From a virus: 63,906 nt of DNA. The notes under the pieces were generated by a model. That model was not told the origin of the DNA. It was given only the letters and a program-made list of their open reading frames with translations, and did not search any database. The stretch is taken from positions 1 through 63,906 of IMG/VR virus record IMGVR_UViG_3300031521_000058. One strand, written 5' to 3'. Position numbers and translations under genes: made by a program. Each line of letters starts with the position of its first letter. Position 1 is the first letter of the stretch. Of the stretch, positions 20,486 through 54,534 are shown piece after piece.

Positions 20486-20761
20486 TTATATGTTATATTT
20501 TTTTGAAGATAAGTGTATTTTTATTTCAGGAATCATATTCAAGTCTACAATCTCTTCTGTTACTTTTTTTATCCACATATTATTATCATAACCTTTATAA
20601 TCTAAGTATAATTGAACAATTTCATTTAAATCAAATGGATTTACATCACTCTCAATTTCTTCTGAGTCTCCATTTGAATGAATCTGCATTAGTCTGTATT
20701 CAGGATCTTGTATAAAAGGCTCAATTTTATTTTCGTATTTTTCAAATTTTCTAATTTCCAT
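20486..20761 (-). CDS. Small protein with leader MEIRKFEKYE and tail KKYNI
   Basis: 91 aa. N-terminus MEIRKFEKYENKIEP and C-terminus HLSSKKYNI both match the tags shared by a set of small proteins in 20.4-34 kb. The body is unrecognised and acidic. Two bases separate it from the next gene of the leftward cluster. Confidence 0.68.
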   Translation of the reverse strand: MEIRKFEKYENKIEPFIQDPEYRLMQIHSNGDSEEIESDVNPFDLNEIVQLYLDYKGYDNNMWIKKVTEEIVDLNMIPEIKIHLSSKKYNI

Positions 20762-20763
20762 AT

Positions 20764-21024
20764 TTAATTATTATGTTTATTGTAGTATTTGTGTACTGTA
20801 TAATTGAAAAAATTTCTAACTATTAAGTTAGATTCTATTGTATAAATCAATAATTTTTTAATTTTATCAAGAAATGTGCTTGTTGTTTCATTTTGAAACA
20901 TCAAATTAGATAATGATCTTGTCATCAGTCCTTCTTCATAATCAAATCCTGTTATTATATTATCATTTATATGTTTTAAATCATATAATTCTTTAATTTG
21001 CATATCTTTTTCTATCATAATCAA
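20764..21024 (-). CDS. Hypothetical small protein
   Basis: 86 aa, helical; overlaps the upstream gene by four bases. Its ends (MIMIEKDMQIKELYD, HKYYNKHNN) only weakly resemble the leader and KFN tail of its neighbours. Confidence 0.62.
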   Translation of the reverse strand: MIMIEKDMQIKELYDLKHINDNIITGFDYEEGLMTRSLSNLMFQNETTSTFLDKIKKLLIYTIESNLIVRNFFNYTVHKYYNKHNN

Positions 21025-21560
21025 ATATTAAATTTTTTTGTTGAGTCATAAGATTCTATATTATTTATGAAATATATTAATGATTGATATTCATCTTTAT
21101 CGAATGTGTAATCCCTGCTAAGATTGAATACATCATTGTCTGTTATTCCTATTTCTAATGCATCATTTCCAGTTTCAGTATAAGTATAAAAATCAACATA
21201 TTCAGAATCTTTACATAAATTATTAAATTTTAAATATTCAGTAATCCATCCAAATGTATCATTTCTATCTGATATTATTTTTTTATAATTATTTATTCCA
21301 TTTTCTTTTAAATATTTCTTATATTCTATCATTCTATTTTTTGATATTTCAAATTCTTCTTCATTTTCATTACTGTCAGTATATGCTATCATATTATCAT
21401 CCCAAAAATCAGTTATTTTAACTATATCTTCTATTTCCTCATATATTTTTAAATATTCAATTGTATATTCTAATAATTCATCATACCTATCTACTATTTT
21501 AGATAATTTATCTTCCCGAATTACACTTTCATTTAATTGAAAAAATCTTTTAATTATCAT
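21021..21560 (-). CDS. Tagged protein: leader MIIKRFFQLNE, tail KKFNI
   Basis: 179 aa. Leader MIIKRFFQLNESVIRED and tail DSTKKFNI place it in the tagged family. The body is acidic with YEDLL and TYTETGNDALEIGI segments, no known domain. Overlaps the next gene by four bases. Confidence 0.7.
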   Translation of the reverse strand: MIIKRFFQLNESVIREDKLSKIVDRYDELLEYTIEYLKIYEEIEDIVKITDFWDDNMIAYTDSNENEEEFEISKNRMIEYKKYLKENGINNYKKIISDRNDTFGWITEYLKFNNLCKDSEYVDFYTYTETGNDALEIGITDNDVFNLSRDYTFDKDEYQSLIYFINNIESYDSTKKFNI

Positions 21561-22093
21561 TCAGTTAATTTGTCTTTTTTGTCAGTCCAAATATAATAGC
21601 CATTGAATTCATTGTCATATACCATATTACCTAATGTTGATATGACGTTTATTGTTGTGTCAAATGTTATTGTTTGTTGAAATGAATATTTAACTTTTTC
21701 TTTATCAATAAACGATAAAGGTTTCATCATAATACCAAAAACGTTTAATGAATCAGGTATATCAGAATAGAATTCTGATAATGCAAAAGTTACTAAATTT
21801 TCTCTAATATTTTCAATATCTTCTTTATCAAAAATACTACATTTAAATACTACTTTTTCTGTACCTAAAATATCTCCTGACATATCATTAATTTTGAATT
21901 GATGTTTCTTTTTATCCATTAAATCAATATATTGTTCATATGTTTTAAAATAATCAACAAGAGTTTTAGTATATTTAGCAGTAGCTAATTTTATGTTATA
22001 GAAAAATTCATCCAATTTTACATTAGGTATTTGAAATTCATATAATGGAGACCATTCTGTGAATTTTTTTATATTATTTATTTCATTTATCAT
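21557..22093 (-). CDS. Hypothetical protein
   Basis: 178 aa. A leader-like NNIKKFTEW is offset by a few residues; there is no KFN tail. Strand-rich body with MKPLSFIDKEKVKYSFQQTITFDTT-type segments. Unknown function, part of the same leftward cluster. Confidence 0.68.
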   Translation of the reverse strand: MINEINNIKKFTEWSPLYEFQIPNVKLDEFFYNIKLATAKYTKTLVDYFKTYEQYIDLMDKKKHQFKINDMSGDILGTEKVVFKCSIFDKEDIENIRENLVTFALSEFYSDIPDSLNVFGIMMKPLSFIDKEKVKYSFQQTITFDTTINVISTLGNMVYDNEFNGYYIWTDKKDKLTE

Positions 22094-22102
22094 TTTTGAT
22101 AA

Positions 22103-22429
22103 TTATTTTTTATATTCATATGAGTTGAATTCTTTTATGTGAGTTAGTTTTTTATATTCATCATCTTTTTCTTTTGCTATTAAATCATCTAATATATCAT
22201 TTAATACAGTTCTTACTAAATTTTTATACTCAATATCATCTGTTATTATATTAGCACCTTTGTTTTTTATATCATCTAAAATATCATTAAACCTTTTAGA
22301 GTTTCTATAATATTTTTTCAATGCTTGTGATGTAGCTCCTTTATTGATATAAAAAATTATAATTGGATATAATTCAGAGAATATATCAGATCTTGCTTGC
22401 TTAGTTAAGTTAGAATTTTCCATATTCAT
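22103..22429 (-). CDS. Hypothetical protein
   Basis: 108 aa, helical and highly charged; no leader or KFN tail. First gene of the leftward cluster, divergent from 22476. No recognised domain. Confidence 0.66.
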   Translation of the reverse strand: MNMENSNLTKQARSDIFSELYPIIIFYINKGATSQALKKYYRNSKRFNDILDDIKNKGANIITDDIEYKNLVRTVLNDILDDLIAKEKDDEYKKLTHIKEFNSYEYKK

Positions 22430-22475
22430 ATATATTAATATTTATTTTCTAAAAATGTTTTTTATATATAATGAC

Positions 22476-22841
22476 ATGATAACTAAATTTAAACTATTTG
22501 AAGATTCTGATAAAAAATTAGTTTGGAATATTCCAGTAAAAATGCCAGATTTTTATATCTCTCTTAAAAAAATTGGAATGCCAGATAAACAAATTATCGA
22601 TTGGATAAGGCTTCGTAAGAATAAAGTTTTTTCAACTAAAGATACTAATACTAATTTTGAAACTATTTCATTAGTAAAACATCCAGAACATGAAGACTCA
22701 TATACATGGTATTGGTATCCAACATCAGAAAGTAATGAATATAATATATTTATGGGTAAATTAGAATGTACTCCAGAAGAAATTCAAGAATACTATGACG
22801 ATATTGAATTTAAAAAAAATACCACTAAATTCAATATATGA
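22476..22841 (+). CDS. Tagged protein: leader MITKFKLFE, tail TKFNI
   Basis: 121 aa from the ATG at 22476; this start is preferred over 22455 because it aligns the leader with that of the next gene (MITKFKLFE in both). Ends KNTTKFNI. Body contains SLVKHPEHEDSYTWYWYP; unrecognised. Its stop overlaps the next ATG (ATGA). Confidence 0.74.
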   Translation: MITKFKLFEDSDKKLVWNIPVKMPDFYISLKKIGMPDKQIIDWIRLRKNKVFSTKDTNTNFETISLVKHPEHEDSYTWYWYPTSESNEYNIFMGKLECTPEEIQEYYDDIEFKKNTTKFNI

Positions 22842-23155
22842 TAACTAAATTTAAATTGTTTGAAACAATTAGTAAAGATGAGCCAGAAATTGGAGATTGG
22901 GTAGTATGTAATGAATCAGAGTTATATTCTTATTATGACGTTATTAATTTCACATCAAATAATATAGGTAAATATATTAGATATGATACAGATTTCATGG
23001 GACCATATGTGATATATTATGAAGAAATACCAAAAAATTTAGAAAAATATTTCTCGCACAATGAAAGAAATATGTCATTAGATGAAATAAAATATATATC
23101 AAAAAATAAAGAAGAATTAGAATATATAATACAAACAAACAAATTTAATTTATGA
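22838..23155 (+). CDS. Tagged SH3-like protein: leader MITKFKLFE, tail NKFNL
   Basis: 105 aa. Leader identical over nine residues to the previous protein. The body EIGDWVVCNE ... NIGKYIRYD ... YVIYYEEIP resembles a small SH3-like barrel and is similar to that of 28057-28395 (GDYVRCHE ... NIGKI ... VKFENIP). Ends QTNKFNL. Confidence 0.74.
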   Translation: MITKFKLFETISKDEPEIGDWVVCNESELYSYYDVINFTSNNIGKYIRYDTDFMGPYVIYYEEIPKNLEKYFSHNERNMSLDEIKYISKNKEELEYIIQTNKFNL

Positions 23156-23664
23156 TAATAAAATTTAATATATTTGAAAATTATTCTGATTATTCTGAGA
23201 TTAGAAAAATTGAATCAACATTAGAATTGATGAAAATTTTAGATGCGAAATCTTTAGATAGTAGAAGCATGGAGCCTTCAATAAAAATGATAAATTTATT
23301 AGATGATGGAGCATATCCAAACATAAAATCTAAAAATGGACAGACTCCTTTGACTTATGCTGCTACGTTATGTTATCATGACTTAATTTATAAACTAATA
23401 GAAGTTGGTGCTGAAATAGAAGCTAAAAATGATAATAATGATACTCCTTTGATGAGATCAGCTATAAATAGTGATGTTGCATCAATGTTTGTGTTATTAT
23501 CTGCTGGATCTTCATTATATTGCAAAAATAATCAAGGACATAAACCATTTGATTTTTTAACTGATTATGATATTAATAAAATAGCTATTAAATTTCCAGA
23601 AAAATATAAAGATTATTTAAAGAAAGATGAGTTTGATAATTCAGTAAAAAAATTTAATTTATAA
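23152..23664 (+). CDS. Tagged ankyrin-repeat protein: leader MIIKFNIFE, tail KKFNL
   Basis: 170 aa. Leader MIIKFNIFENYSD, then ankyrin repeats from about 45 to 140 (KNGQTPLTYAATLCYHDLI, GAEIEAKNDNNDTPLMRSAI, NNQGHKPFDF), then FPEKYKDYLKKD, and tail NSVKKFNL. The pre-tail end matches the C-terminus of the 452-1507 ankyrin protein, which has no tag. A good example of tags added to a known fold. Confidence 0.82.
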   Translation: MIIKFNIFENYSDYSEIRKIESTLELMKILDAKSLDSRSMEPSIKMINLLDDGAYPNIKSKNGQTPLTYAATLCYHDLIYKLIEVGAEIEAKNDNNDTPLMRSAINSDVASMFVLLSAGSSLYCKNNQGHKPFDFLTDYDINKIAIKFPEKYKDYLKKDEFDNSVKKFNL

Positions 23665-23665
23665 T

Positions 23666-24343
23666 ATGAAACATGTTAAAATGTATGAAGAAAATAGTTA
23701 TTCTATAATATTATTCAAAAATGAAAAAGAATTGAAAACATTATTATTAAAAAATGAAGATTTTTCAAAAGGTGATGTATTTCACGGTATAATTGATGTT
23801 TTATATAAAGATTATTCATCTGATATTAATTATGATGATTTTTTAAATTTGGTAAAAGAAAAATATGGAACATTACCGTGTTTTTGTGTTCTTCTTGGTA
23901 ACTATAATGGACAAGTTTTTAATGGCGGGCATCTACAATATTATGATAATGGATATGCCAGTTCTAAATCAAAAGGTTATTATAACCGTGGTGGTAATCC
24001 TTATAATAACGTTGATATTCATGAAAAAATGATTATTTTGTTTGAAAAATTAAAAATATCAGAACATATTTCTAAAAAATTAGTATATGATGCATATTCA
24101 ATAATGAAAGATTTTAATTTTGATAGTGTTAATTTTAATTGTTACAATGGAGATAACGGAGAATATAGTGAGTATGATAATGATAAAAATGAAGATTTAG
24201 ATAAATTAGATCAAAGATGGTATGATATAAATGAAGATTTTATTGATGAATTTAATAATTATCTAAAATCATTAAATTTAGAAGGAGATTCAATATCAAA
24301 ATTAATAGAGTTATCAAACAAAATAAATAAATACAATATATAA
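23666..24343 (+). CDS. Tagged protein: leader MKHVKMYEE, tail NKYNI
   Basis: 225 aa. Leader MKHVKMYEENSYS and tail KINKYNI. Body unrecognised, with PCFCVLLGNYNGQVFNGGHLQYYDNG and KGYYNRGGNP glycine/asparagine-rich turns, which look like a binding or enzymatic core. Last gene before a strong terminator. Confidence 0.74.
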   Translation: MKHVKMYEENSYSIILFKNEKELKTLLLKNEDFSKGDVFHGIIDVLYKDYSSDINYDDFLNLVKEKYGTLPCFCVLLGNYNGQVFNGGHLQYYDNGYASSKSKGYYNRGGNPYNNVDIHEKMIILFEKLKISEHISKKLVYDAYSIMKDFNFDSVNFNCYNGDNGEYSEYDNDKNEDLDKLDQRWYDINEDFIDEFNNYLKSLNLEGDSISKLIELSNKINKYNI

Positions 24344-24373
24344 AAAGAGATGATTAATATCATCTCTTTTTTT
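24342..24373 (+). terminator. Rho-independent terminator
   Basis: Stem AAAAAGAGATGAT/ATCATCTCTTTTT with 4-base loop and T run, overlapping the stop of the preceding gene. Confidence 0.88.
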
Positions 24374-24444
24374 ATATGTCAGTTTAATATTTTTTATTTA
24401 AACCAATTATAAAATAATTGATATAATAAGAAACAATAAATATA

Positions 24445-25806
24445 ATGACAGCACAAGAAAAGAGAGATAAAATAGCAGAATTAAAAACAAAAATTGATGT
24501 AACTAAGGCTGATTATGATAGAGCAAAAGCAATGCAATTAGCTTTGAAATTGGTTATTAACGGTACATATGGAGCATTCGCTCATCCTAAATTTGTATTG
24601 TCAAATTCTCATATTGCAAATGCTATTACTGCTCAAGGACGTGATGTTATAAATTATATGCTTAAAAAAATAGAAACATATTTCTATAAAGAATGGCACT
24701 TAGATGTAAAGACTCATCAACTACTTGGATTAGAATATATTGCTGAAAAAGATGGTAGTTTTTATTTATTAGATAGAAATGGAGATAATATTCATTATAA
24801 ATATGAATCAGTTGATAATTTATTAGAAAAATTGAATTACTATCGTAATGATTTAGTTGAAGATAAAAAAGAATTAAATGGTTATAATGTATTATTTAGT
24901 AGATTTATTCATGATTTCTCTAATGTAACTCAGTTACCAAAAGATGTTCCAATTACAATTTACGGCGATACTGATTCATTATATATTTCATTCGCTCCTA
25001 TGATAAAGTCATGTGGATTTAATGGAGATGAATTAGACTTCATTCTTCATATGGATAGAGTTTTTATAGAAAAAAAATATAATGGTTGGCTAGATGAATA
25101 TGCTGCAAGATATGGAGTTAAGAATATACACAACTTTGAATTAGAAACAATTAATAGATCAGCATTACACATACAAAAAAAGCATTATATAAATAATGTA
25201 GCTTGGGAAGATGGCTTATTTTATGAAAGTATGAGTTATTTTTATCCAAAAGGTGTTGAAATTGTTAAATCATCTACCCCTCCATTTGTTAGAGAAAATA
25301 TTTATGAGTTTTTGAGATATATATTTTCTAATCCTAATAATTTGAATATTAGAAAAATATTACTAATTGTGAAAGATTTGAAAAAACAATTCATGATGGC
25401 TAATATTGAAGATATTAGTATGACTTCAAGTTGCACTAATTATCCAATTAAAGTTATTGATGATGTTACTGATGTTTTATGTGTTAAGGGTGCTCACTTT
25501 GCAGTTAAAGCTGCAGCTTTACACAATTACTTATTAAATAAAAACTCTGAATATAAAACAAAGTATGATAATATTAGAGGAGGACGTATAAAATATTTTT
25601 ATTGTAATCATGTTAAAAATAGCGTATTTGCATATCAAAGAGGATTATATCCATATGAAATATGTGAAAAAGAAGGTGTTAAAATAGATTATGATGAACA
25701 ATTTGATGTGACAATGCTTCACATCGTAAATAGGTTTCTTGAACCAATTGGATTACCTACAATAAATAAAAGATTGTCAGTTTTGAATTCAATCTTTCAA
25801 TTTTAA
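24445..25806 (+). CDS. Family B DNA polymerase, C-terminal part only
   Basis: 453 aa. Motif B is K35-LVINGTYGA, motif C YGDTDSLY at 173-180, and the K-K-x-Y motif lies in HIQKKHYINNV; the remainder corresponds to palm end and thumb. The exonuclease domain and motif A (D-x2-SLYPS) are absent, and the protein starts only about 35 residues before motif B. It therefore cannot be a complete polymerase; the N-terminal part must be encoded elsewhere or the gene is split. It is preceded by a terminator and about 70 bases of non-coding DNA. Confidence 0.9.
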   Translation: MTAQEKRDKIAELKTKIDVTKADYDRAKAMQLALKLVINGTYGAFAHPKFVLSNSHIANAITAQGRDVINYMLKKIETYFYKEWHLDVKTHQLLGLEYIAEKDGSFYLLDRNGDNIHYKYESVDNLLEKLNYYRNDLVEDKKELNGYNVLFSRFIHDFSNVTQLPKDVPITIYGDTDSLYISFAPMIKSCGFNGDELDFILHMDRVFIEKKYNGWLDEYAARYGVKNIHNFELETINRSALHIQKKHYINNVAWEDGLFYESMSYFYPKGVEIVKSSTPPFVRENIYEFLRYIFSNPNNLNIRKILLIVKDLKKQFMMANIEDISMTSSCTNYPIKVIDDVTDVLCVKGAHFAVKAAALHNYLLNKNSEYKTKYDNIRGGRIKYFYCNHVKNSVFAYQRGLYPYEICEKEGVKIDYDEQFDVTMLHIVNRFLEPIGLPTINKRLSVLNSIFQF

Positions 25807-25880
25807 ACAAATATTGTTGTTGATTAATTATCAAACAAATTATCATATTTATAATATATATTTAATAACGTAAAATAAAT

Positions 25881-26726
25881 ATGAAAAAAATAACAGGAGA
25901 TAAATTTCAAGAATCATTTAAAAATGATTTAAGTAAAGTTAATAAAAATACAAATCATGAGCTTAGCTTTGATTTGTTTGGTGTATCACATAAAGAAGTT
26001 AAAGATATAGATTCTAAAAATAAGATAAATAATATTGATAGAAAAATAATTAAATGTGAATATATTAAATTAAAAAAAATAAAGATACCAGGACTTAATT
26101 GCTGTAGTGCATATCGAGGTGATTTATTAATAACTAATTTTAATAACTTTATAATTGCTGATGTTAAAAATTATTATGATATTAATAATATTATGAAATT
26201 TCCTAAAGATTTAAATAAAAAAAATTTTTTTAAAGGAGTGGATTCTAATATTAAACCATTAATTTTTTGTGAATTATTGAATATACCTATATTAAATAAT
26301 TTATTTAAAAGTGAATCTGACTTCAATAAAATAAAAAACAATTTTAGTTTATTGACAAAAATTGGAAAAATAACTAGAGAAAAATGTATTGATATAATAT
26401 CATTTTCGGAAATTGGTTATGCATATAAAGAAAAACAACTTGAGAATATTAAATATTTTTTATCAAAATCTGATAGTAGTGATGATATTTTATTTTTAAA
26501 AAAATTAGATATAAATAATTTTGTTAATTGTGATTACATAACAGTTAAGATGAGAATAGATGATAATGGTTATACTTATATTTATTTTTGTGATGATAAA
26601 GATGAATGTATTTATGTATTATCACAAAGAAAATATAACAAAAAACACGGATTTGTTGGAAATTGTTCTTTTTTATGCAGAAATATTGTACCAGAAATTG
26701 TCGTTGATTTGTCATCTTATGCATGA
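25881..26726 (+). CDS. Candidate restriction-type nuclease (PD-D/ExK-like)
   Basis: 281 aa, basic. A possible nuclease core is YRGDLLI (D81) followed by FIIADVKNYYD (D94-x-K96), the spacing and strand pattern of PD-(D/E)xK enzymes. It sits 46 bases before a DNA methyltransferase in the same orientation, the usual layout of type II restriction-modification pairs. Fold assignment is by motif only; no family is recognised. Confidence 0.5.
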   Translation: MKKITGDKFQESFKNDLSKVNKNTNHELSFDLFGVSHKEVKDIDSKNKINNIDRKIIKCEYIKLKKIKIPGLNCCSAYRGDLLITNFNNFIIADVKNYYDINNIMKFPKDLNKKNFFKGVDSNIKPLIFCELLNIPILNNLFKSESDFNKIKNNFSLLTKIGKITREKCIDIISFSEIGYAYKEKQLENIKYFLSKSDSSDDILFLKKLDINNFVNCDYITVKMRIDDNGYTYIYFCDDKDECIYVLSQRKYNKKHGFVGNCSFLCRNIVPEIVVDLSSYA

Positions 26727-26772
26727 TTAAATAATTTATATTATAATTAAAAACAAAAAAAACAAATAATAA

Positions 26773-27519
26773 ATGCTAGAATTTAATAAAATATATCAGA
26801 TGGATGTATTAGAAGGATTAAGAAAACTAGATGATAATAGTATTGATGCTGGAGTATCTTCACCACCATATAATAAACTTGGACTCATGAAAGGAAAAAA
26901 GCAAAAAGGTGGAGATTGGGATGGATATATCACATATGATAATTTTGAAGATAATATGCCTGAAGATGAGTATCAGAAATGGCAAATAGAAATATTAAAT
27001 GAAATTCAGAGAGTATTAAAACCTGGTGGCTCATTTTTTTATAATCATAAAAATAGAAGATATGATAAAACAGAGTATTCTCCATATGAATGGGTTAGTA
27101 AATCAAATATAAATATTTATCAAACAATTATTTGGGATAGAAAAGCTGATGTTAATAATTCTTTATATTTTTTTCAACCAGTATATGAATTAGTATATTG
27201 GTTAACAAAAGATAATAAAAAAGCACCAATTTTCAATAAAAGAGATTTGATTGAACAAAAAAGTATTTGGAGAATATCACCAAAAATGAATATTCCTCAT
27301 CCAGCTCCTTTTCCAGAAGAATTAGTTGAACATTGTATAAATGCAACTACTAAAGAAGGAGATGTAGTATTAGATCCTTTTATGGGAGTAGGCACAACTG
27401 CTCTTGTTGCAAAAAGATTAGGTAGAAAGTATATCGGTTTTGATATATCAGGAGAATATATTAATATTGCTGAAAAAAATGTAGAGGAAGGCAAAATTAG
27501 AAAAAAAAATGAAATGTAA
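26773..27519 (+). CDS. DNA methyltransferase (PF01555-like)
   Basis: 248 aa. Catalytic SSPPYN at 29-34, AdoMet motif DPFMGVGTTALVAKRLGRKYIGFD near 198, beta-class order; the start MLEFNKIYQMDVLEGLRKLDD is typical. SSPPY suggests N4-cytosine, though some N6-adenine enzymes share it. Possible partner of the upstream candidate nuclease. Its stop overlaps the next ATG by one base. Confidence 0.9.
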   Translation: MLEFNKIYQMDVLEGLRKLDDNSIDAGVSSPPYNKLGLMKGKKQKGGDWDGYITYDNFEDNMPEDEYQKWQIEILNEIQRVLKPGGSFFYNHKNRRYDKTEYSPYEWVSKSNINIYQTIIWDRKADVNNSLYFFQPVYELVYWLTKDNKKAPIFNKRDLIEQKSIWRISPKMNIPHPAPFPEELVEHCINATTKEGDVVLDPFMGVGTTALVAKRLGRKYIGFDISGEYINIAEKNVEEGKIRKKNEM

Positions 27520-27743
27520 TGAAAGAAAAAGTCACTGTAGAAAAAGAAAAGAAAAATGTTGAATTTGTTTTTGAAAATTCAGAAGATTTTAATAAATATA
27601 CAGGAAAAATTAAAACATCTGAAATAGATACTGAAGATTGTATATTAACTATTTATAAAAAAGGATCAGTCGTTAGAAAACTTCGTAGAATAGGAATCAA
27701 TGAAAATTCAACAAAAAATATTAATTATAGAGAAATAATTTAA
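27519..27743 (+). CDS. Hypothetical small protein
   Basis: 74 aa, highly charged, one-base overlap (TAATG) with the methyltransferase stop. No recognised domain; tight coupling suggests it is made with the methyltransferase. Confidence 0.66.
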   Translation: MKEKVTVEKEKKNVEFVFENSEDFNKYTGKIKTSEIDTEDCILTIYKKGSVVRKLRRIGINENSTKNINYREII

Positions 27744-27745
27744 AA

Positions 27746-27994
27746 ATGAGCATAAAAACAACACATATAGTAACAAGAGAATTCGCAATTAATGCAATTA
27801 TTAAAAAACAATCAGATCTTTATAATTTATCTGATGAAGATCTTTCAAATTTATTAGAAGAAAGTATTCATAATGGTTTTTATAATTTTATCATTGTTAG
27901 TGAATCTGAAATGATAGAAAACAAAAATAAAAATTGTTCTAGTCCTTATTTGGATGATATTTATTATTTACCAGAAAGTAATGATGCTTGGTAA
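27746..27994 (+). CDS. Hypothetical small protein
   Basis: 82 aa, acidic: THIVTREFAINAIIKKQ, LYNLSDEDLSNLLEESIHNGFYNFIIVSE. Resembles small phage proteins of unknown function. Ends the operon before a terminator. Confidence 0.7.
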   Translation: MSIKTTHIVTREFAINAIIKKQSDLYNLSDEDLSNLLEESIHNGFYNFIIVSESEMIENKNKNCSSPYLDDIYYLPESNDAW

Positions 27995-27995
27995 T

Positions 27996-28027
27996 AAAAA
28001 ATCCACAATTTATTGTGGATTTTTTTA
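27996..28027 (+). terminator. Rho-independent terminator
   Basis: Stem AAAAATCCACAA/TTGTGGATTTTT, loop TTTA, T run. Confidence 0.88.
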
Positions 28028-28056
28028 TATATAATTATTATAAAATAATTTTTAAT

Positions 28057-28395
28057 ATGAAATTTTTAAAACATTATGAAGATTTAAATTCTGGATTTAA
28101 CGTAGGTGATTATGTAAGATGTCATGAATTGACATATTCAAAAGATTTGAAAAACTTTTTTGAGAATAATATCGGAAAAATTGAATCCATAGATTATGAT
28201 AAACATGACAATTTTAAATATTATAATGTCAAATTTGAAAATATTCCTATTGAAATATTAGATTATATAAAAAAATATTATACTAGTAACTTTGATTATA
28301 CTATGCCGTTTTCTGATGCAGATTTAATATTAGCTACACCTGATGAAATTAAAGAACAGAAAATTAAAAATTTATCTGATAAATTTAATATTTAA
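28057..28395 (+). CDS. Tagged SH3-like protein: leader MKFLKHYED, tail DKFNI
   Basis: 112 aa from the ATG at 28057; the longer reading from 27988 crosses the terminator. Leader MKFLKHYEDLNSG, body FNVGDYVRCHE ... NIGKIESIDYDK ... YYNVKFENIPIEI, tail NLSDKFNI. The body is similar to that of 22838-23155. Its 3' end overlaps the convergent SLOG-like gene by 11 bases. Confidence 0.75.
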   Translation: MKFLKHYEDLNSGFNVGDYVRCHELTYSKDLKNFFENNIGKIESIDYDKHDNFKYYNVKFENIPIEILDYIKKYYTSNFDYTMPFSDADLILATPDEIKEQKIKNLSDKFNI

Positions 28396-28918
28396 ATAAA
28401 CTTATTATTGCATTCATTCCATTTTCATTTATATTTCTTGTTCCAATTCCTGCAAATTTTTCAGTTAATTTTGGAATACCTTCATATATTTCAAATGCGT
28501 TTGACTCATAATCAAAATAATGCCACTGGTTCACATTTTGCTCAAATAAATATACTGGTTTGTGATTGTCAATCGCACAAGAACAAGCATAACCTGTTCC
28601 ACCTCTGACATTAGTTTCATTTTCAAGAGTACCAATTGCAAATATTGTATCAGAACATTTTACTTGAAACCAATCTCTTGATATTAGATATTTTACATAT
28701 GAAGAAATATTCTTTATGTTTCTATTTAGTCTTTCATTAGCAATTTTTATATGTTCATAACCTTCTTTTATCTGATTTGTTGATAGAATATATTTATTAT
28801 CTGATTTTGTGTTATGTCCTTCAAAAGAAAAAGATATGACTTTTATTCCTTTTTTAATTGATTCTTGCTCAAATATATAATCTGATCCAGATGCACCTCC
28901 GCTATAGCATGTTTTCAT
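28385..28918 (-). CDS. SLOG/Rossmann-type nucleotide-binding protein
   Basis: 177 aa. The N-terminal CYSGGASGSDYIFEQ glycine loop, DTIFAIGTLEN, VRGGTGYACSCAIDNHKPVYLFEQ and FAGIGTRNINENG are typical of SLOG-like (DprA/LOG-related) Rossmann domains, which bind nucleotides or NAD/ADP-ribose-type ligands. Whether it is an enzyme or a sensor cannot be told. In the leftward operon with three other genes. Confidence 0.68.
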   Translation of the reverse strand: MKTCYSGGASGSDYIFEQESIKKGIKVISFSFEGHNTKSDNKYILSTNQIKEGYEHIKIANERLNRNIKNISSYVKYLISRDWFQVKCSDTIFAIGTLENETNVRGGTGYACSCAIDNHKPVYLFEQNVNQWHYFDYESNAFEIYEGIPKLTEKFAGIGTRNINENGMNAIISLFKY

Positions 28919-29343
28919 ATTGACTTATTTATATTAATTAATTTTTCTTTTCTTTTATGTGTAATTAGGTATTTGTTGAATATGTCTTTTTTATTATCCC
29001 AATAATCACTTGTCTCTCCAATATTATCATTTTCCATTAAAGAGTTATATCCAGACACTTTTTCATATATTTCACATGGATTATAAAGACATATATCATT
29101 TATATAATCTGATTTATGATAATCTATTATTAATTTTATATAATTTCCTGTTCCAAAATTTATATCATTTAAAATATTTATCCAATTATTAATAGGTTTT
29201 ATGATTTTATATATGTGTATTGCATACGGATGAACAGAAATTAAATATTTTTCGTTTAATCCATAATAATCTCTATAGCTCAAGTTATGAAATTTTGTTT
29301 TTAACATTTCATCTATAATTTTAATGATATCAGTTTCTCTCAT
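28915..29343 (-). CDS. Hypothetical protein with RKEKL tail
   Basis: 142 aa. Unrecognised body; ends HKRKEKLININKSI, the recurring tail. Overlaps the SLOG-like gene by four and the methylase gene by 14 bases. Confidence 0.68.
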   Translation of the reverse strand: MRETDIIKIIDEMLKTKFHNLSYRDYYGLNEKYLISVHPYAIHIYKIIKPINNWINILNDINFGTGNYIKLIIDYHKSDYINDICLYNPCEIYEKVSGYNSLMENDNIGETSDYWDNKKDIFNKYLITHKRKEKLININKSI

Positions 29344-29842
29344 TTGTTATTATTATTTCATTTCTAAAAATAAAATTATCTCCACTATATTTATTAATAT
29401 TATAATCTTTATATAATTTTCTTATGAATTGGTTATCCTCATATGATATAATAACTTTTCCTTTGAGCTTATCAATTTCATTTTTTAGTTCTATATGAAA
29501 ATTTTCATTATAATTCTCACAATTTTCATATAAAAATTCTTTTTTATAATATGGAGGGTCTAAATACCAAAAAATATTTTCAGTATTATACATACTGAAA
29601 ATTTCTTTATAATCTAAGTGATGAATTATATTAGCATCAATTTTTTTATCATAAGTATTTATGTCATTATAAATTGAAAAATTAGGTTTAATTTTTAAAT
29701 AATTAAAAACACAGTAGTTACCACCAAATGGCTCACAATACATATCAATTTCATTAGGTATGAAATTTATTATAAATGAGTCATATAACTCTTTCTTTTT
29801 ATATCCAAATATCATTTCTATTATTTTATTAATGATAACCAT
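29330..29842 (-). CDS. Small Dam-like (D12 class) adenine methyltransferase
   Basis: 170 aa. CEPFGGNYCVF corresponds to the AdoMet motif (F-x-G-x-G variant), then YNDIN, the catalytic WYLDPPYYKKE (DPPY at 95-98), VIISYEDNQFIRKLYKDY and NEIIITN at the end: the D12 order. It is about 100 residues shorter than Dam, mainly lacking target-recognition segments, so activity and specificity are uncertain. Confidence 0.75.
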   Translation of the reverse strand: MVIINKIIEMIFGYKKKELYDSFIINFIPNEIDMYCEPFGGNYCVFNYLKIKPNFSIYNDINTYDKKIDANIIHHLDYKEIFSMYNTENIFWYLDPPYYKKEFLYENCENYNENFHIELKNEIDKLKGKVIISYEDNQFIRKLYKDYNINKYSGDNFIFRNEIIITNERN

Positions 29843-30543
29843 TCATTGAAAAAATTTCTAAAATTTTGATCTCCTCCAAGCTCTCTTTTAAATATCTCAA
29901 ACACTTTACTATCTTTGTATAGTCTATGTTCAATACTTGGAACTTCTTCAATATTATTATTAGTTATTTTTATTTTTTTAAAGTTTAAAAATTTTTTAAA
30001 TCCAAATGGTTCATCTGATAATATACGATAATCTGTATTACCATTTAAAACTCCATTTAATTCACTATCAGATAGAATTTTCAAATATACAGAAGCATCT
30101 GCCAATGCTGCATATTCAATATTTTCTAAATTTTCTGGTAAAAATACAGAGAATTCTATTTCTGCTTCATCATTAACGAATCCTCTATTTTCAAATTCCT
30201 CGTCTATCTTCTTTTGTTCATTTTCAGGTAAATCATCATATTCGTATCCATTATCATCTAGAAAATCTTCCCATGACTGTTTTTTTCCAACTTCAACTCT
30301 ATTTTCAATAAAATTTGTTTCATCTGACAGTAACAGATGCTGTTTTTTCATCCAATCAAATACATTTACATTAATATCAAATCCGTAATTATTAAACAAC
30401 TCTAAAACTTTAGAACCTAATTTTAAATCTAATTCTTTATTGCCTATTTTAATTTTTGGCTGTAGTATATTATTAACACTCCATTTATCAATTTTTGAGA
30501 ATGGTACTGTTTTTATTTCTTCGTTAAATCTTTTTATTTCCAT
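29821..30543 (-). CDS. Hypothetical protein with KRFNE leader
   Basis: 240 aa. Starts MEIKRFNEEIKTVPFSK, a leader of the tagged family, but ends NEWLSLIK without the KFN tail. Acidic body containing EVGKKQSWEDFLDDNGYEYDDLPENEQKK. Unknown function. Confidence 0.7.
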   Translation of the reverse strand: MEIKRFNEEIKTVPFSKIDKWSVNNILQPKIKIGNKELDLKLGSKVLELFNNYGFDINVNVFDWMKKQHLLLSDETNFIENRVEVGKKQSWEDFLDDNGYEYDDLPENEQKKIDEEFENRGFVNDEAEIEFSVFLPENLENIEYAALADASVYLKILSDSELNGVLNGNTDYRILSDEPFGFKKFLNFKKIKITNNNIEEVPSIEHRLYKDSKVFEIFKRELGGDQNFRNFFNEWLSLIK

Positions 30544-30627
30544 AATTTCCTTGTTTTTTGTGAAAGTATATATTAATTTTTTGATGAATTTTTTTTTATA
30601 TATACTTGAAAATATAATATAATATTA

Positions 30628-32043
30628 ATGAAAATCTACTCTAATGAATATATTACAGATTTTAACAAATTAAAAAATTCTGTTATAGGGTTTGAATTTG
30701 AATTTTATACCGATAAATCATATTTTAAATTAATTGAATTATTAAATAATACTCTTGCTCCTATTCAGGTACATGGTTATAGAAAATATCACTCAACTTT
30801 TACTCCAGATGAAAATAATTTTAAAATTGAACCAGATTTATCAGGTGGTGCTGATCTTGTAGAATTAATTACTGGACCAATACCTTATGTAAATTCTAAA
30901 ATAATTTTATTGAAAATTTTAAAAGTTCTTGATAAATATGCTAGAACTGATGAAAAATGCTCTATTCACATCAATATATCTTTTGATGATATAGGTAATG
31001 GTAAAGTATTAGATAATTTAAATAAGTTAAAATTAATTTTATCTGTAGATGAAGAACGAATATACAACTTTTTTCCTGAAAGAAAAAATAATATCTATGC
31101 AAAAAGTGTTAAAACATTAATTCCATTCAAAGGTTTTGATTTTTCTACTAATGCAGTAGATATATTACAGAATAATGTACAAATAGGAAATACTAAATAT
31201 TATGGAATAAATTTTATACCAGCAGAAAATATTGAAGCATCTGGACAAAGATTAGAGTGGAGATATATTGGAGGAGATAATTATAATCAGAAATCATCTG
31301 AGATATTATCATTAATGGATTATTTTATAGCAATTACTTGGAATTGTTGTGATGCTAAATTGGATGATAATGATTTAAAAAAATTACAAAAATATTTATT
31401 TGAAAATATTAATATATTCAAAACATTTTCAAATTATAATGATTTTATTGCAGAATTTCCAACAATTGATATTCAAGTAGATAAATTGAATGATTATAGT
31501 ATAGTGAAAGCTTATTATGATACTATTTATACTAAGATATTTGACATGGTTAGAAATATTTATAATCTTAAAGATTGTATTATAAATTTAGATACTGAAG
31601 TTAATAGAATTGAATTGGTTGATGCAACTTTTAAAACAATATTTGATTTATATGATTTAGATTTTATTGAATGCTCTATGAATAATGGTAGATATACAAG
31701 CTGTAATTTTATCTCATCAGAATTAGTTAATGGTACTATTCATGGCGGAGAAATTTCTGATACTGATATATTGAATTCTAAAATTGAAAGTGCTACGATT
31801 GATTTAGATTCAGAAGTTAGTGATTGTTATTTATATCAATGTATGATTAACTGTAGAGTAAAAGGAAATTCTGTTATAAGAATGTGTAAGCTTGGACCAA
31901 ATGCAATTATAGATGATTCTGTTAAGATTGCAACTGATACTAACAATTATTTTCACACTACACCAACTGGAGAAGATATTAAAAAAGGACCAGAAGATTT
32001 GAAAGATATGAAAATACCATTCACAAAAGGAAAAAAATGGTAA
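30628..32043 (+). CDS. Amidoligase-like protein with C-terminal beta-helix-like repeats
   Basis: 471 aa. Residues about 15-230: VIGFEFEFYTD, EPDLSGGADLVELITGP, CSIHINIS and QRLEWRYIGGDN match the COOH-NH2 ligase (amidoligase) family related to glutamine synthetase, in which E, H-x-N and R-x-E-R residues bind metal and ATP. Residues about 335-440 look like a right-handed helix (IECSMNNGRYTSCNF, INCRVKGNSVIRMCKLG). Probably joins an amino group to a carboxylate on a peptide or protein; substrate unknown. Confidence 0.62.
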   Translation: MKIYSNEYITDFNKLKNSVIGFEFEFYTDKSYFKLIELLNNTLAPIQVHGYRKYHSTFTPDENNFKIEPDLSGGADLVELITGPIPYVNSKIILLKILKVLDKYARTDEKCSIHINISFDDIGNGKVLDNLNKLKLILSVDEERIYNFFPERKNNIYAKSVKTLIPFKGFDFSTNAVDILQNNVQIGNTKYYGINFIPAENIEASGQRLEWRYIGGDNYNQKSSEILSLMDYFIAITWNCCDAKLDDNDLKKLQKYLFENINIFKTFSNYNDFIAEFPTIDIQVDKLNDYSIVKAYYDTIYTKIFDMVRNIYNLKDCIINLDTEVNRIELVDATFKTIFDLYDLDFIECSMNNGRYTSCNFISSELVNGTIHGGEISDTDILNSKIESATIDLDSEVSDCYLYQCMINCRVKGNSVIRMCKLGPNAIIDDSVKIATDTNNYFHTTPTGEDIKKGPEDLKDMKIPFTKGKKW

Positions 32044-32044
32044 T

Positions 32045-32377
32045 ATGAAAATAGAAAAATTTAATGAAAATAATAGAGAAGATTATGACAATTTTGTAAA
32101 TAAAGTTAAATCTTTGTTTTTAGAATTATGGGACGATAAATTAGGAATTTCAAGTTTTAAAATAGATACTAATGTCAGATTTAATCTATCTTTTAATATT
32201 AGTATGTCTATTACGAGTGATAATTTTGTAGAATATAATGAACTGTGTAATGTTTTAAACGATTCTGATTCAAGATTTCAATTAATTTCTGGCGTTATGT
32301 ATGCAAGCATAACAGATTTTAATAAACTTATTGATAATATTAAACTATTGCTAAATTCAAGAAAATTTAATGTATAA
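32045..32377 (+). CDS. Tagged protein: leader MKIEKFNE, tail RKFNV
   Basis: 110 aa. Leader MKIEKFNENNRED and tail LNSRKFNV. The body (VKSLFLELWDDKLGIS) is paralogous to the 32811-33149 protein (AKELFLDLWDDSLKLY). One base after the previous stop. Confidence 0.75.
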   Translation: MKIEKFNENNREDYDNFVNKVKSLFLELWDDKLGISSFKIDTNVRFNLSFNISMSITSDNFVEYNELCNVLNDSDSRFQLISGVMYASITDFNKLIDNIKLLLNSRKFNV

Positions 32378-32379
32378 TA

Positions 32380-32811
32380 ATGAAAATAGATAAATTCAAT
32401 GAAGGTTTTTTTAGTAAAAAAGATAAAATTTCATTGAAAAAAATAGGAGATTCTAAAGTTATAGATGATAGGATAAAGAAATGTGAAGAATATATATCTT
32501 TATTAAAAAAAACATTTTTTAGTGATTTAAAATGCTTCATTAAATACGAATATTTTGAAGAATATGACAATTTATTATTAATAATTAATGTTTCAGATAA
32601 GATAAGTAATTTTTCCAGTGATAAATTAAGGTTATCTAATAATTATAATAATTTTAAACTATTTTTGACTTACATAGAAGACCGTTGTGATTTCGTGATA
32701 TATCCTGGGAGTAATTCATCAACAAAAATTTCTTTGACATTTCATAACAATGTTGAAATATGTTTAGATGATTTATACACAAAAATAGATTCAAAAAAAT
32801 TCAACATATAA
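32380..32811 (+). CDS. Tagged protein: leader MKIDKFNE, tail KKFNI
   Basis: 143 aa. Leader MKIDKFNEGFFSKKDK and tail KIDSKKFNI; body has ECYISLLK-like and IYPGSNSSTKISLTFHNN strands, unrecognised. Overlaps the next ATG by one base (TAATG). Confidence 0.75.
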   Translation: MKIDKFNEGFFSKKDKISLKKIGDSKVIDDRIKKCEEYISLLKKTFFSDLKCFIKYEYFEEYDNLLLIINVSDKISNFSSDKLRLSNNYNNFKLFLTYIEDRCDFVIYPGSNSSTKISLTFHNNVEICLDDLYTKIDSKKFNI

Positions 32812-33149
32812 TGGAAATAGATAGATTTCAAAGTGAAGGTAAAAATTTAGCTGATGAAGCTAAAGAATTATTTTTAGATTTATGGGATGATTCGTTAAAA
32901 TTGTATCAAATGACATGCTATTCTTATATAGATACATCTGATAATATTTTTTATGAAATAAACACTAAAACTCGTGTAGCCATTACAAAAGAATCTTATA
33001 TTGATTATAAAGATATGTTTGATCTTATTCTAAGATGCGGAGAAAATTTTAAATATGAAAAGGATACATTACTGGTAAATTTTGATGATATTAAACCTTT
33101 TATAAAGGAAATGAAAATATTAAAAAACTCAAAAAAATATAATTTATAA
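32811..33149 (+). CDS. Tagged protein: leader MEIDRFQSE, tail KKYNL
   Basis: 112 aa. Leader MEIDRFQSEGKN and tail KNSKKYNL. Paralogue of 32045-32377 (LFLDLWDD motif). One-base overlap with the next gene. Confidence 0.75.
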   Translation: MEIDRFQSEGKNLADEAKELFLDLWDDSLKLYQMTCYSYIDTSDNIFYEINTKTRVAITKESYIDYKDMFDLILRCGENFKYEKDTLLVNFDDIKPFIKEMKILKNSKKYNL

Positions 33150-33574
33150 TGATTACAAGCTTTGATACTAAATCAACAGATCATAATTTTTATTTTCCAT
33201 CTGTTGCAGGGCCAGAAGGTAAAATTCCTTTTGCTGGAACTAATTATGGGGAGGAACCAAGGATAAAGAACTTCAAGCAATATTTTGGAGAATATCGAAA
33301 AGGATCTGATAAATTTGGCAAATTAGTTGAAAGAATAATGGAATTTTTAAGATTACCAGAATTTAAAGATCGTCTTAGTGAGAACGATGGACTAAAATTT
33401 TTAATTTATGACTTTGAATCAAGATCACATATTAAAGTAGAAAAAATTAAACAATTATTAAGTAATGATACAAACCTTTATAGCTTTGATATTAAGATAG
33501 ATGATAAATTCATAACATTTTCTAATATAAACAAAACTAGAAAAGGTAGATATGTATCAGGTAGAAAAGATTAA
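33149..33574 (+). CDS. Hypothetical protein
   Basis: 141 aa. No leader or tail although inside the tagged cluster. Starts MITSFDTKSTDHNFYFPSVAG; contains a region that looks like EGKIPFAGTNYGEEPRIKNF. Unrecognised. Confidence 0.68.
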   Translation: MITSFDTKSTDHNFYFPSVAGPEGKIPFAGTNYGEEPRIKNFKQYFGEYRKGSDKFGKLVERIMEFLRLPEFKDRLSENDGLKFLIYDFESRSHIKVEKIKQLLSNDTNLYSFDIKIDDKFITFSNINKTRKGRYVSGRKD

Positions 33575-33579
33575 ATCAT

Positions 33580-34050
33580 ATGATAAAAAATTATAGTGAC
33601 TATTCTCAAAAATTAAAAACTAATAATTTAGCAAAATCTATATGTGATACATTTACATCTGATACTAATTTTAAAGATTTTGATTGTTTAATATATAAGG
33701 ATATACCAACAATATCAAAAAAAGATTATTCTTGTAATATAGAATTCTTTACTAAAGATGAAAAACAGTTAATATATAATTTAGATATTAGTTTTTGTTT
33801 AGATTCTGATAATTATTATATAATATGGATTCGTGATTCTTGGGTAGATTTAGAATATAAATATTTGAAAGTTTTTATGATTTTCATTCAATTCTTAATA
33901 TATTCATTTCATATAATTTCTGGTGGTAGTAAATCATATTTTTCATTTCAAGGTAAATCAGATGATGTTAATGATTTGGACGAAATAATAACTAATATTA
34001 ACCCTGAAAGATATGAAATTTTTAAACAATCAAAAAAATTTAATGTATAA
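33580..34050 (+). CDS. Tagged protein: leader MIKNYSDYS, tail KKFNV
   Basis: 156 aa. The N-terminus MIKNYSDYSQKLKTNN is a divergent leader, the tail KQSKKFNV is canonical. Body with YNLDISFCLDSDNYYIIWIRDSW and a hydrophobic helix; related in outline to the neighbouring paralogues. Confidence 0.7.
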   Translation: MIKNYSDYSQKLKTNNLAKSICDTFTSDTNFKDFDCLIYKDIPTISKKDYSCNIEFFTKDEKQLIYNLDISFCLDSDNYYIIWIRDSWVDLEYKYLKVFMIFIQFLIYSFHIISGGSKSYFSFQGKSDDVNDLDEIITNINPERYEIFKQSKKFNV

Positions 34051-36141: not shown

Positions 36142-36375
36142 AATTATATATTATTATTTTTTATTATATATAAATTTTAAACTTTAATAAATTAAAAGTA
36201 AATTCATATTCTTATTTCATTATTATATTTTTTGATAACATATAGTATTTATGTGTAGATATTTATCATTATATATATTTCAATAATGATTGCTACATGT
36301 GCTAATTCCCTGAGTTTTTTGATATTCACAAATTTATATATAAAAAATAAGTTAATAAATTATATATATAAATCT

Positions 36376-37017
36376 ATGAAGATATTTAAATTTGAAAATT
36401 TTGCTATAAATGAAAATATATCACTAATTAATCATGACGGAATATTATTAATCGTTGATGTTCAGTCTAATTTTAAGAAATATTTTCCTACTGATCCTAA
36501 TGGTTTCATTAAAAAAATTGACAAATATTGTTTGGATTTTCCATCAGATGAAACAGGAAAAGGAGTGTATCAAATATGGGATTCAAATCAAGGTTCTAAG
36601 CCTACTTATAAATTTAAAAATGAGATAGATTTGATAGAAAAAAAATATGGAGTTAAAAAATTTTATTCTAAATATAAAGGAGGGTTTAAAGAATGGATAA
36701 CACATATTTTTGATAAAAAAACACTTGAAGAATTCAAATCAAGAAATAATGTATTTAAGAAAGGAGATGCATTTAGATTAAAGGAACAAAATGAATTCTT
36801 AATATATATAGGAAATAATCATCAATGGTTTTATGTCAATGATGAATTGGTAGAACTATTTAAAAAATTAAGAAATAAAAAGGTTATAATATGTGGAGGA
36901 GCAGAAGATGAATGCTTAGACGATGTATATATAGCATTAAAGTCGTTTAATGTTAATGTAATTAAAAATCATCAATATATCTATAGTGCTGAAACAGGTA
37001 ACTATTTGAAGAAATAA
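36376..37017 (+). CDS. Isochorismatase-like hydrolase with phage leader
   Basis: 213 aa from the ATG at 36376, where the leader MKIFKFENFAINE begins; a longer frame from 36286 lacks it. After the leader the chain continues HDGILLIVDVQSNFKKYF (catalytic Asp) and later KKVIICGGAEDECLDDVYIALKSFNVNVI, whose Cys is in the nucleophile position of the isochorismatase/nicotinamidase fold. The middle Lys is not certain. The leader suggests packaging or targeting of this enzyme. Confidence 0.68.
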   Translation: MKIFKFENFAINENISLINHDGILLIVDVQSNFKKYFPTDPNGFIKKIDKYCLDFPSDETGKGVYQIWDSNQGSKPTYKFKNEIDLIEKKYGVKKFYSKYKGGFKEWITHIFDKKTLEEFKSRNNVFKKGDAFRLKEQNEFLIYIGNNHQWFYVNDELVELFKKLRNKKVIICGGAEDECLDDVYIALKSFNVNVIKNHQYIYSAETGNYLKK

Positions 37018-54493: not shown

Positions 54494-54499
54494 AAAATT

Positions 54500-54534
54500 A
54501 AAAAAGCTTCATATTTAAATATGAAGCTTTTTTA
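54500..54534. terminator. Bidirectional terminator
   Basis: Perfect hairpin AAAAAAGCTTCATATTT and its complement between convergent genes. Confidence 0.88.

Follow-up and report, generated by a model that had tools for sequence, protein, structure and literature searches.

Why would a set of small viral proteins that otherwise differ from one another begin and end with almost the same few residues? We addressed this question in a virus record of 63,906 nucleotides (IMGVR_UViG_3300031521_000058), whose full length is hereafter called the window, and in which a preliminary description had reported at least ten proteins tagged at both ends between positions 20,486 and 34,050. This count held: eleven open reading frames of the region have K[FY]N[ILV] as their exact C-terminus, and ten of them start with a leader, recognised by eye as a short stretch with basic and aromatic residues and a Glu within 8–11 residues, the sole exception being 33580 (MIKNYSDYSQ). 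These genes, together with those carrying a leader or leader-like start only, are listed below.

20486..20761, minus strand: tagged gene, leader MEIRKFEKYE, tail SKKYNI
21021..21560, minus strand: tagged gene, LNE-type leader MIIKRFFQLNE, tail KKFNI
22476..22841, plus strand: tagged gene, leader MITKFKLFE, tail TKFNI; stop overlaps the next ATG (ATGA); start placed by the leader within ORF 22455-22841
22838..23155, plus strand: tagged gene, predicted SH3-like barrel, leader MITKFKLFE, tail NKFNL
23152..23664, plus strand: tagged gene, ankyrin repeats, leader MIIKFNIFE, tail KKFNL
23666..24343, plus strand: tagged gene, leader MKHVKMYEE, tail NKYNI
28057..28395, plus strand: solitary tagged gene with a convergent neighbour, leader MKFLKHYE, tail DKFNI; TTTTTTATATATA upstream
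29821..30543, minus strand: leader-only gene without tail, MEIKRFNEE
32045..32377, plus strand: tagged gene, leader MKIEKFNE, tail RKFNV
32380..32811, plus strand: tagged gene, leader MKIDKFNE, tail KKFNI
32811..33149, plus strand: tagged gene, leader MEIDRFQSE, tail KKYNL
33580..34050, plus strand: tagged gene, degenerate leader MIKNYSDYSQ, tail KKFNV
36376..37017, plus strand: leader-only gene without tail, MKIFKFENFAINE; putative start within ORF 36286-37017
42934..43701, minus strand: leader-like start MKVLKYSRYSFLKEANLITE (by eye), without tail
46255..47451, plus strand: leader-only gene, T4-like start MKKTYSDFMLNE (by eye)
47453..47887, plus strand: leader-only gene, MIHINNYEIFLE; putative start

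The last of these genes resembles gene 45973 of a near relative (G002, a 330-kb record), a member of a leader-only family. Searches of G002 with tblastn at 1e-5 returned no match for the tagged genes 32380..32811 and 33580..34050.

Extent of the two-ended tagging

The two-ended tagging is real and more extensive than first noted, with similar short peptides on both ends of about a hundred small proteins that differ in other respects. The tail K[FY]N[ILV] ends 11 of the 104 called genes of the window against 0.01 expected, and 103 of the 593 genes of G002 against 0.16 expected, genes coming from a simple gene caller and expectations from the internal occurrences of the motif. Tail genes were also recovered from the relatives G008 (22/224), G004 (16/62), G003 (6/51, part of the record) and G007 (4/60); four of the 33 genes of G006 end in DFNL or EFNL, and none of the 68 genes in the part of the G010 record covered carries the tail. 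Whole-record counts of the pattern against its reversed form revealed nothing comparable in six more distant named huge phages (10 v 12, 11 v 5, 13 v 13, 17 v 14, 20 v 15 and 19 v 8); the same comparison in G002, with a slightly narrower pattern, gave 54 v 2. Among 251 families, the tail was present in all members of 56, absent from 194 and mixed in a single one. Its consensus is [AST]-x-K-[FY]-N-[ILV]-COOH, preceded by residues whose logo is acidic and which two models render as a helix. No junction between [DE]FNL and a leader was found by a dedicated search, and the 25 stretches of a species-genome collection that matched the junction pattern did so once each; we ascribe these single hits to chance, though without a shuffled comparison, and they pointed to no host. 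In the portions of the mostly open literature reached by our searches, no earlier account of the C-terminal tail or of these tags appeared.

The typical leader reads M-[KI]-[YHT]-[IL]-K-x-[FY]-E, with Glu at position 8 in 67 of 93 leaders of G002, where tagged genes also start with MKTYQQFNE, MKTFIQFNE or MKTFNQYNE. A strict regular expression built from the forms of other genomes picks up no more than 5 leader genes across the window, and the leaders there are thus more varied than those of G002. Leader and tail are associated: in G002, on which the strict expression was itself shaped, the leader occurs in 81/104 tail genes and 20/489 others, and at loci selected by the junction pattern (100 of 120 junction loci taken in) the counts are 273/365 and 70/839. 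A looser leader test is failed by 11 tail genes of G002; 20038 and probably 257680 are cut at the ends of 20-kb pieces, 142755 and 259635 begin in a leader-like way at a codon other than ATG, the leader of 268395 is followed by an in-frame stop, 228570 has leader-like residues without ATG, and the remaining five are leader variants.

Likely destination of the tagged proteins

The preliminary description had likened the leader to the capsid-targeting peptides of phage T4, and a rank test agreed. A matrix made from huge-phage leaders and run on 259 T4 ORFs placed the internal protein IPI first and IPII/IPIII twelfth (tied), with Alt at rank 102 and the core and shell proteins below the 70th; most of the remaining top-ten matches are not known as head proteins. 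Passages of a published account (PMC9026906) state that targeting in T4 is governed by residues 4 and 7, and these positions are mostly I/L and F/Y in the leaders studied here. Starts of the form F..[phi][NHA]E occur at 36/571 genes of W01 and 28/593 of G002, and at 24/1934 and 17/1258 internal Met, respectively; for [phi][NHA]E-type starts, no significant enrichment was detected in the window, W03, W04 or G008. P3 (two residues before Glu) is hydrophobic in only 66 of 142 leaders, so that a good number of them may be at odds with a gp21-like site.

The prohead protease that the earlier description had proposed to look for was found in G008, as a head maturation protease (phrog_207, E 5e-32) within a 790-aa protein that falls just below the Pfam S77 cut-off, and whose gene adjoins that of a gp23-like capsid protein (Pfam Gp23). 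The same search found neither protease nor gp23 match in the window, and in G002 no protease match and one weak gp23 match only. The capsid proteins of W01–W04 and G008 have in common, near residue 40, [LMI][NH]E-N, a motif that we take for a putative maturation site and that matches the LNE/FNE form of some leaders.

Upstream of the tagged genes, TTTT[TA]ATATATA, a motif chosen after seeing the tagged set, precedes 15 of the 28 with a gap vs 25/270 genes with neither tag nor leader, and is also common to a collagen-type tail fibre gene and a baseplate-wedge gene. It is not present upstream of the protease and capsid genes of G008 and is not clearly enriched at leader-only genes (2/10 vs 25/270, p 0.25), so that a role in marking late genes is only suggested. 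The T4 late promoter TATAAATA is not enriched upstream of tagged genes (2/28 vs 20/280), and the depletion of the host-like TATCTTTG is not significant (0/28 vs 29/280, p 0.09). Promoters of the TATCTTTG type, together with statements on the largest Mahaphages in PMC7162821, make Bacteroidota the likely host group.

On balance, it seems rather likely that the tagged proteins are head-loaded cargo of a giant T4-type head, bearing a leader akin to a capsid-targeting sequence (CTS) and a clade-specific C-terminal tag, and encoded in exchangeable cassettes. We infer that the leader would act like the T4 sequence by recruiting the protein into the prohead core, after which the prohead protease would probably remove it. 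The C-terminal tag would provide a further address, specific to the clade and retained by the mature protein; most likely it would make a second contact in the core or serve ejection, such that only complete proteins would be loaded. Cassette junctions would let the phage gain, lose and diversify its injected proteins. If so, a single 330-kb phage stretch names about a hundred candidate injected proteins, mostly without known function in the samples scanned, among which host-takeover or anti-defence factors may abound. The C-terminal tag would then be a protein address that has gone unrecognised, and the junctions would account for the way in which huge phages assemble and exchange arsenals of injected proteins. 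The tags amount to a simple sequence rule, directly testable by proteomics on any isolate of the clade.

The same tags could instead direct the proteins to an infection-induced compartment, assembly scaffold or membrane site, where leader and tail would be bound together and nothing packaged, a reading that we regard as unlikely. It draws on a second C-terminal tag, RKxK[LI]xx[LI] (class B), carried by 67 of the 593 genes of G002, which almost never have a leader: none is shared with the 105 genes of class A (the K[FY]N[ILV] tail) where about 12 would be expected, which looks like sorting to two places, even if the non-overlap may partly reflect that both motifs need the same end. It would also fit the distant huge phages that have CTS-like leaders and no tail, from which it follows that CTS-type loading does not generally require the tail. 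Against it, the leader matrix picks out T4 internal proteins, and LNE/INE leaders match the capsid-protein motif. Combined with head loading, the two classes allow a broader, speculative proposal, which we consider conceivable without leaning towards it: the clade may sort 29% of its genes (172/593 in G002) by peptide labels, class A being head cargo and class B a second set, with other second labels in other huge phages (such as DPYGEE, a recurrent motif of a 735-kb huge phage genome), and the tail would then be a new viral C-terminal sorting signal. When the SH3-like family of class A was aligned by profile with a class B family, the probability reached only 10.8% over 34 columns, and we claim no relation between the two.

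The tail could also be a stability signal that limits protein lifetime independently of the leader, acting either as a degron with a free carboxylate or as a PDZ-like ligand recognised by a protease or adaptor of host or phage. The terminal residue is hydrophobic, its position is exactly C-terminal, AlphaFold2 confidence is low for the last residues, and the tail fits the phi-x-phi-COOH form of class II PDZ ligands. We nevertheless hold this to be improbable, as it leaves unexplained why nearly all tail genes of G002 carry a leader or leader variant.

Conservation of the ends, cassettes and bodies

Tails are held at the protein level. Homologue partners picked without the last 18 residues kept the tail in 71 of 74 cases, and the amino-acid difference amounts to 0.144 for the final four residues and 0.196 for residues 2–8 of the leader vs 0.337 in the body, so that the ends are indeed more conserved than the bodies, as the modular reading of the preliminary description supposed. 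Synonymous change per codon is 0.148 in the last four codons vs 0.142 in the body: the junction is thus not conserved as DNA at synonymous sites.

These values bear on the proposal that the ends are by-products of DNA, either a recombination site or an ATGA translational-coupling element at the junctions, with no role for the protein. Tagged genes are often arrayed, with near-identical tail-stop-start-leader junctions, and in G002 the tail gene overlaps the next ATG by 4 bases in 52/103 cases, Asn AAC is over-used in tail codons (52/103 vs 13.6%) and A is almost always the final base of the last codon. Single cassettes are cleanly gained and lost at the junction: 10 comparisons, drawn from the same 100 of 120 loci and chosen by the junction pattern, gave 7 distinct insertions, in which the extra genes were tagged every time. 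However, tail retention, a synonymous change equal to that of the body with less than half its amino-acid change, and the 14 of 103 G002 tail genes that face a convergent neighbour (simple gene caller) together mean that a DNA site or translational coupling is insufficient; moreover, codon choice for Y and N lies close to background in the G008 group. We therefore reject an explanation by DNA only, which appears very improbable, and recombination at junctions probably adds to the picture.

Bodies behave as expected from the earlier suggestion of modular tags: with their ends trimmed, the 104 tailed proteins of G002 still split into 62 BLAST clusters, among them an SH3-like one (23 members) and an ankyrin one (12 members), with alignments leaving out 1 and 2 of their members, respectively. 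The ankyrin repeats initially reported in the window were confirmed (Pfam Ank_2, E 5e-8), and beyond them nothing passed the cut-off in a Pfam scan of 10 of the 11 tagged proteins. The reported SH3-like barrel (22838..23155) is supported by an AlphaFold2 model (pLDDT 84.8), of which the best PDB matches, to photosystem I chain E (PsaE), an SH3-like protein, are weak (E only about 0.01). Orthologues between the window and G002 were found for 7/11 tagged and 45/64 untagged proteins (at least 80 aa), with no clear difference. Duplication of a single ancestor, its bodies diverged beyond recognition, would suit the 23 and 12 members gathered in single clusters but is scarcely credible and was rejected, since divergence of one domain does not yield both an ankyrin solenoid and an SH3-like barrel, and the trimmed bodies remain so divided.

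Comparison with known systems

The T4 internal proteins IPI, IPII and IPIII resemble this system in their short leader with hydrophobic or aromatic residues at positions 4 and 7, borne by small, otherwise unrelated proteins, and in the T4-type protease and shell protein found in G008. They differ in being few, against about a hundred here, where the leader is usually 8–9 residues long and ends in [FY]E or FNE; the conserved C-terminal tag is a further difference, as we know of no such tail in the T4 internal proteins. Encapsulins load unrelated proteins into an HK97-fold shell through a short C-terminal peptide. Compared by description, that peptide is like the present tail, which is however accompanied by an N-terminal leader.

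In T4 Alt, propeptides lie at both termini and the C-terminus is processed, according to parts of the same account (PMC9026906); both ends thus matter in head maturation, but Alt is no match of the leader matrix, and no processing is known for the tail described here. Giant Salmonella phage SPN3US and the phiKZ group contain many internal head proteins, some processed by the prohead protease (passages of PMC5694885 and PMC10052503), and are comparable in this large internal set within a giant head; their propeptides, however, mostly exceed 100 residues, and these passages describe no shared short tags. Judged by a piece of the DNA polymerase, with 49% identity to the 735-kb genome, the closest named relatives are the Mahaphage huge phages, those compared (LR756501 and others) being taken for phages presented in PMC7162821. 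CTS-like leaders are present in W01–W03, as in the clade studied here, whereas these phages are without the KFN tail and the 735-kb genome has DPYGEE instead.

Shared protein ends in the window and its relatives

In the window, a 63.9-kb virus record with a G+C content of 21-29%, 11 open reading frames (ORFs) within 20486-34050, on both strands, have K[FY]N[ILV] (the tail) as their very last residues. This represents 11 of 104 genes called with a simple gene caller (ATG first, minimum 45 amino acids, overlap filter), vs 0.01 expected from internal occurrences of the motif. Short N-terminal leaders such as MITKFKLFE, MKIEKFNE and MKHVKMYEE were recognised by eye at 10 of the 11, the start of gene 33580 being only degenerate as a leader; a strict leader expression matched five window genes.

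Using the DNA-polymerase piece 24445-25803 as query, we recovered 11 related loci, the nearest named phages being uncultured huge phages of 735, 642, 635 and 636 kb (49-36% identity). PMC7162821 assigns the largest huge-phage genomes to the Mahaphage clade and predicts Bacteroidetes hosts for them. The tail closes 103 of 593 genes in the near relative G002 (330 kb), vs 0.16 expected. The family with shared ends proposed in the preliminary description stands, much stronger than visible from the window alone. Further relatives carried it at 22/224 (G008), 16/62 (G004), 6/51 (G003) and 4/60 (G007) genes; G006 showed [DE]FNL at the end of 4/33, and G010 no tail among 68. Six named huge phages, including Lak, displayed no comparable excess over the reversed pattern (largest ratios 11 v 5 and 19 v 8). 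Matches to a degenerate pattern spanning the junction of two tagged genes lay in at least 120 stretches of the viral collection, and among the matches listed, 80 rows corresponded to 58 contigs from 31 metagenomes (two of the rows having nine matches); across 84,980 species genomes it matched 25 stretches, once apiece.

The tail can be roughly summarised as E-E-phi-E-phi-x-x-x-[AST]-[NK]-K-[FY]-N-[ILV]-COOH, where the final three positions are the selection rule itself while -4 and -6 lie outside it (in G002, K at -4 in 103/105, [AST] at -6 in 86/105), and the leader as M-[KI]-[YHT]-[IL]-K-x-[FY]-E (93/105 passing a loose rule). The two ends tend to occur together: the strict leader was found in 81/104 tail proteins of G002 vs 20/489 genes without tail, and in junction-selected loci in 273/365 vs 70/839. 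The 11 G002 tail genes failing a looser leader test comprised one certain and one probable piece-end artefact, two non-ATG leader-like starts, one in-frame stop after the leader, one set of leader-like residues without ATG, and five leader variants. Leaders also exist without tails, in 12 of 194 tailless families, and the tail is therefore an addition to the leader. One such gene, G002 287298-288941, encodes a PPK2 + HAD RNA-repair protein with the leader MLKYDDYNKLNEAF, resembling the capsid-targeting sequence (CTS) of the phage T4 internal proteins, and bears the motif TTTT[TA]ATATATA.

The bodies differ behind these ends, as had been described beforehand: once 15 N-terminal and 18 C-terminal residues were trimmed, 104 G002 tail proteins fell into 62 clusters (E 1e-3), the biggest having 23 SH3-like and 12 ankyrin members, with one pair of LRR proteins recognised by eye. 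Among ten of the 11 window tail proteins scanned, the ankyrin protein alone exceeded the Pfam cut-off, confirming that body. Aligning 22 of the 23 SH3-like members with two window proteins left only two invariant columns, Glu in the leader and, partly through selection, Asn in the tail. Two AlphaFold2 models gave well-defined bodies (blocks 75-97) and low confidence at both ends, with 50 and 42 for the leaders and 56 and 66 for the last blocks.

Constraint on the tail and gain of tagged genes

Searching other records with tail proteins deprived of their last 18 residues returned 656 pairs, 74 of them independent (50-92% identity), and 71 of these 74 partners still terminated in [FY]N[ILVM]; among the three exceptions, one has KFSI at its end and another resembles a shifted reading. 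Substitutions affected Asn -2 in 3 pairs, the aromatic residue in 8 and Lys in 7, and positions -5 to -7 in about half. Per codon, the last four codons showed 0.148 synonymous and 0.144 amino-acid differences, the body 0.142 and 0.337. By whole-protein identity, 56 families were all-tail, 194 no-tail and 1 mixed, and a convergent gene faces the tail in 14/103 G002 tail genes (simple gene caller). The tail is under protein-level constraint. Codon use in G002 nevertheless counts against a purely protein view: the tail Asn is AAC in 52/103 vs 13.6% elsewhere, a bias persisting without gene overlap, and the last codon ends in A, 52 ATGA overlaps accounting for only part of both biases. The G008 group showed no such AAC bias (7/48); TTA was likewise preferred.

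In 431 comparisons, the neighbours of tagged genes were identical in two phages; one or two genes were added in 10 (7 distinct), at loci picked by the junction pattern, and the added genes were always tagged, one being the interrupted gene 268395. Several joins were clean inside a near-identical stretch running from tail codons through ATGA to leader, and contig L187 retained a short remnant between two junction copies.

Likeness to T4 capsid targeting

A matrix built from huge-phage leaders and scored on 259 T4 ORFs placed IPI at rank 1, the annotated gp61.1 at rank 2 and IPII and IPIII jointly at rank 12, which bears out the likeness to T4 capsid-targeting peptides noticed earlier; Alt came 102nd, and core and shell proteins below 70th. 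T4 gp61.1 (NC_000866 18966-19130) starts with MKTFKEFIKE, very similar to the IPI leader. PMC9026906 states that T4 CTS targeting is governed by residues 4 and 7, and processing by residues 8 and 10.

The prohead protease search suggested in the preliminary description gave a match in G008, a head maturation protease (phrog_207, E 5e-32) within a 790-aa protein, adjoined by a gp23-like protein. Capsid-protein N-termini share [LMI][NH]E-N in G008 and four more distant named huge phages, W01-W04 (LYE-N in W05); some leaders end similarly, in LNE, INE or FNE. Such starts were enriched in W01 (36/571 vs 24/1934) and G002 (28/593 vs 17/1258), with marginal enrichment in W02 (p 0.04); W03, W04, G008 and the window showed no enrichment. 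Because most leaders of KFN-tailed proteins end KFE, TFE, LFE or IFE, and hydrophobic P3 occurs in only 66/142, leader cleavage is likely at best.

Judged from sequence, the leader looks like a T4 CTS and probably works like one. We consider, with moderate confidence, the best explanation to be head loading of the CTS type, supplemented by a C-terminal tag. Two alternatives are live: tagged proteins may be bound for a destination different from the head, or the tag may act as a stability signal.

Beside head loading, late expression of the tagged genes is suggested only: TTTT[TA]ATATATA, selected once tagged genes had been inspected, lies upstream of 15/28 tagged genes preceded by a gap of 40 bases or more, vs 25/270 genes without tag or leader. 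It is also present at a collagen-type tail fibre gene and a baseplate-wedge gene, and absent at the G008 protease and capsid genes. The host-like TAnnTTTG, whose genes include a Cas3-like helicase, NAD synthase, NAPRTase and a gp32-like protein, showed no significant depletion at tagged genes (3/28 vs 58/280).

Further tags and neighbouring genes

A second C-terminal tag, RKxK[LI] within the last 22 residues, marks 67/593 genes in G002 (1.1 expected), 19/224 in G008 and 11/104 in the window.

Window genes with an RKxK[LI]xx[LI]N-like tag and no leader
1621-2067, tag gene
8267-8590, tag gene
8574-8831, tag gene
9147-9383, tag gene
18781-19044, tag gene
28915-29343, tag gene
39349-40011, tag gene
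52720-53082, tag gene
54515-54790, tag gene
55232-55717, tag gene
62203-62841, tag gene

It is never combined with the KFN tail (0 in G002 vs about 12 expected, p 1.5e-6), and the strict leader is rare among its genes (3 in G002), which lie mainly in runs of their own. Their bodies are diverse (65 proteins in 56 clusters), and the named huge phages W01-W06 and T4 have almost no such tag. Two mutually exclusive C-terminal classes within one genome look like address labels.

Other repeated strings were observed. In W01 (LR756501, 1-396200), a motif centred on DPYGEE.W occurs in 37/571 called genes, 20 of the 37 with a loose CTS-like leader, frequently four residues before the C-terminus or directly after the leader; a literature text search for DPYGEE turned up a single, unrelated paper. 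Adjacent genes of G010 (54155-58436) share a ...NF.KWFGDS start after a CTS-like leader, and INEN[IV], perhaps another tag type, ends three of four. Four adjacent window genes (61413-63644) start with MKIR[NT]GFVSNSSSSSF.

The DNA polymerase is apparently split: window ORF 24445-25806 matches phage DNA polymerases, and in G002 (23642 and 111471) a second ORF, at a distance of roughly 87 kb, gives DNA polymerase family matches as well. By eye, the window also encodes SmpB-like (2075-2518), IF-3-like (15729-16256) and oligoendopeptidase F-like (16985-18784) proteins, and a nicotinamide/nicotinate phosphoribosyltransferase-like protein (6388-7587), the only one of the four with support, via its G002 relative.
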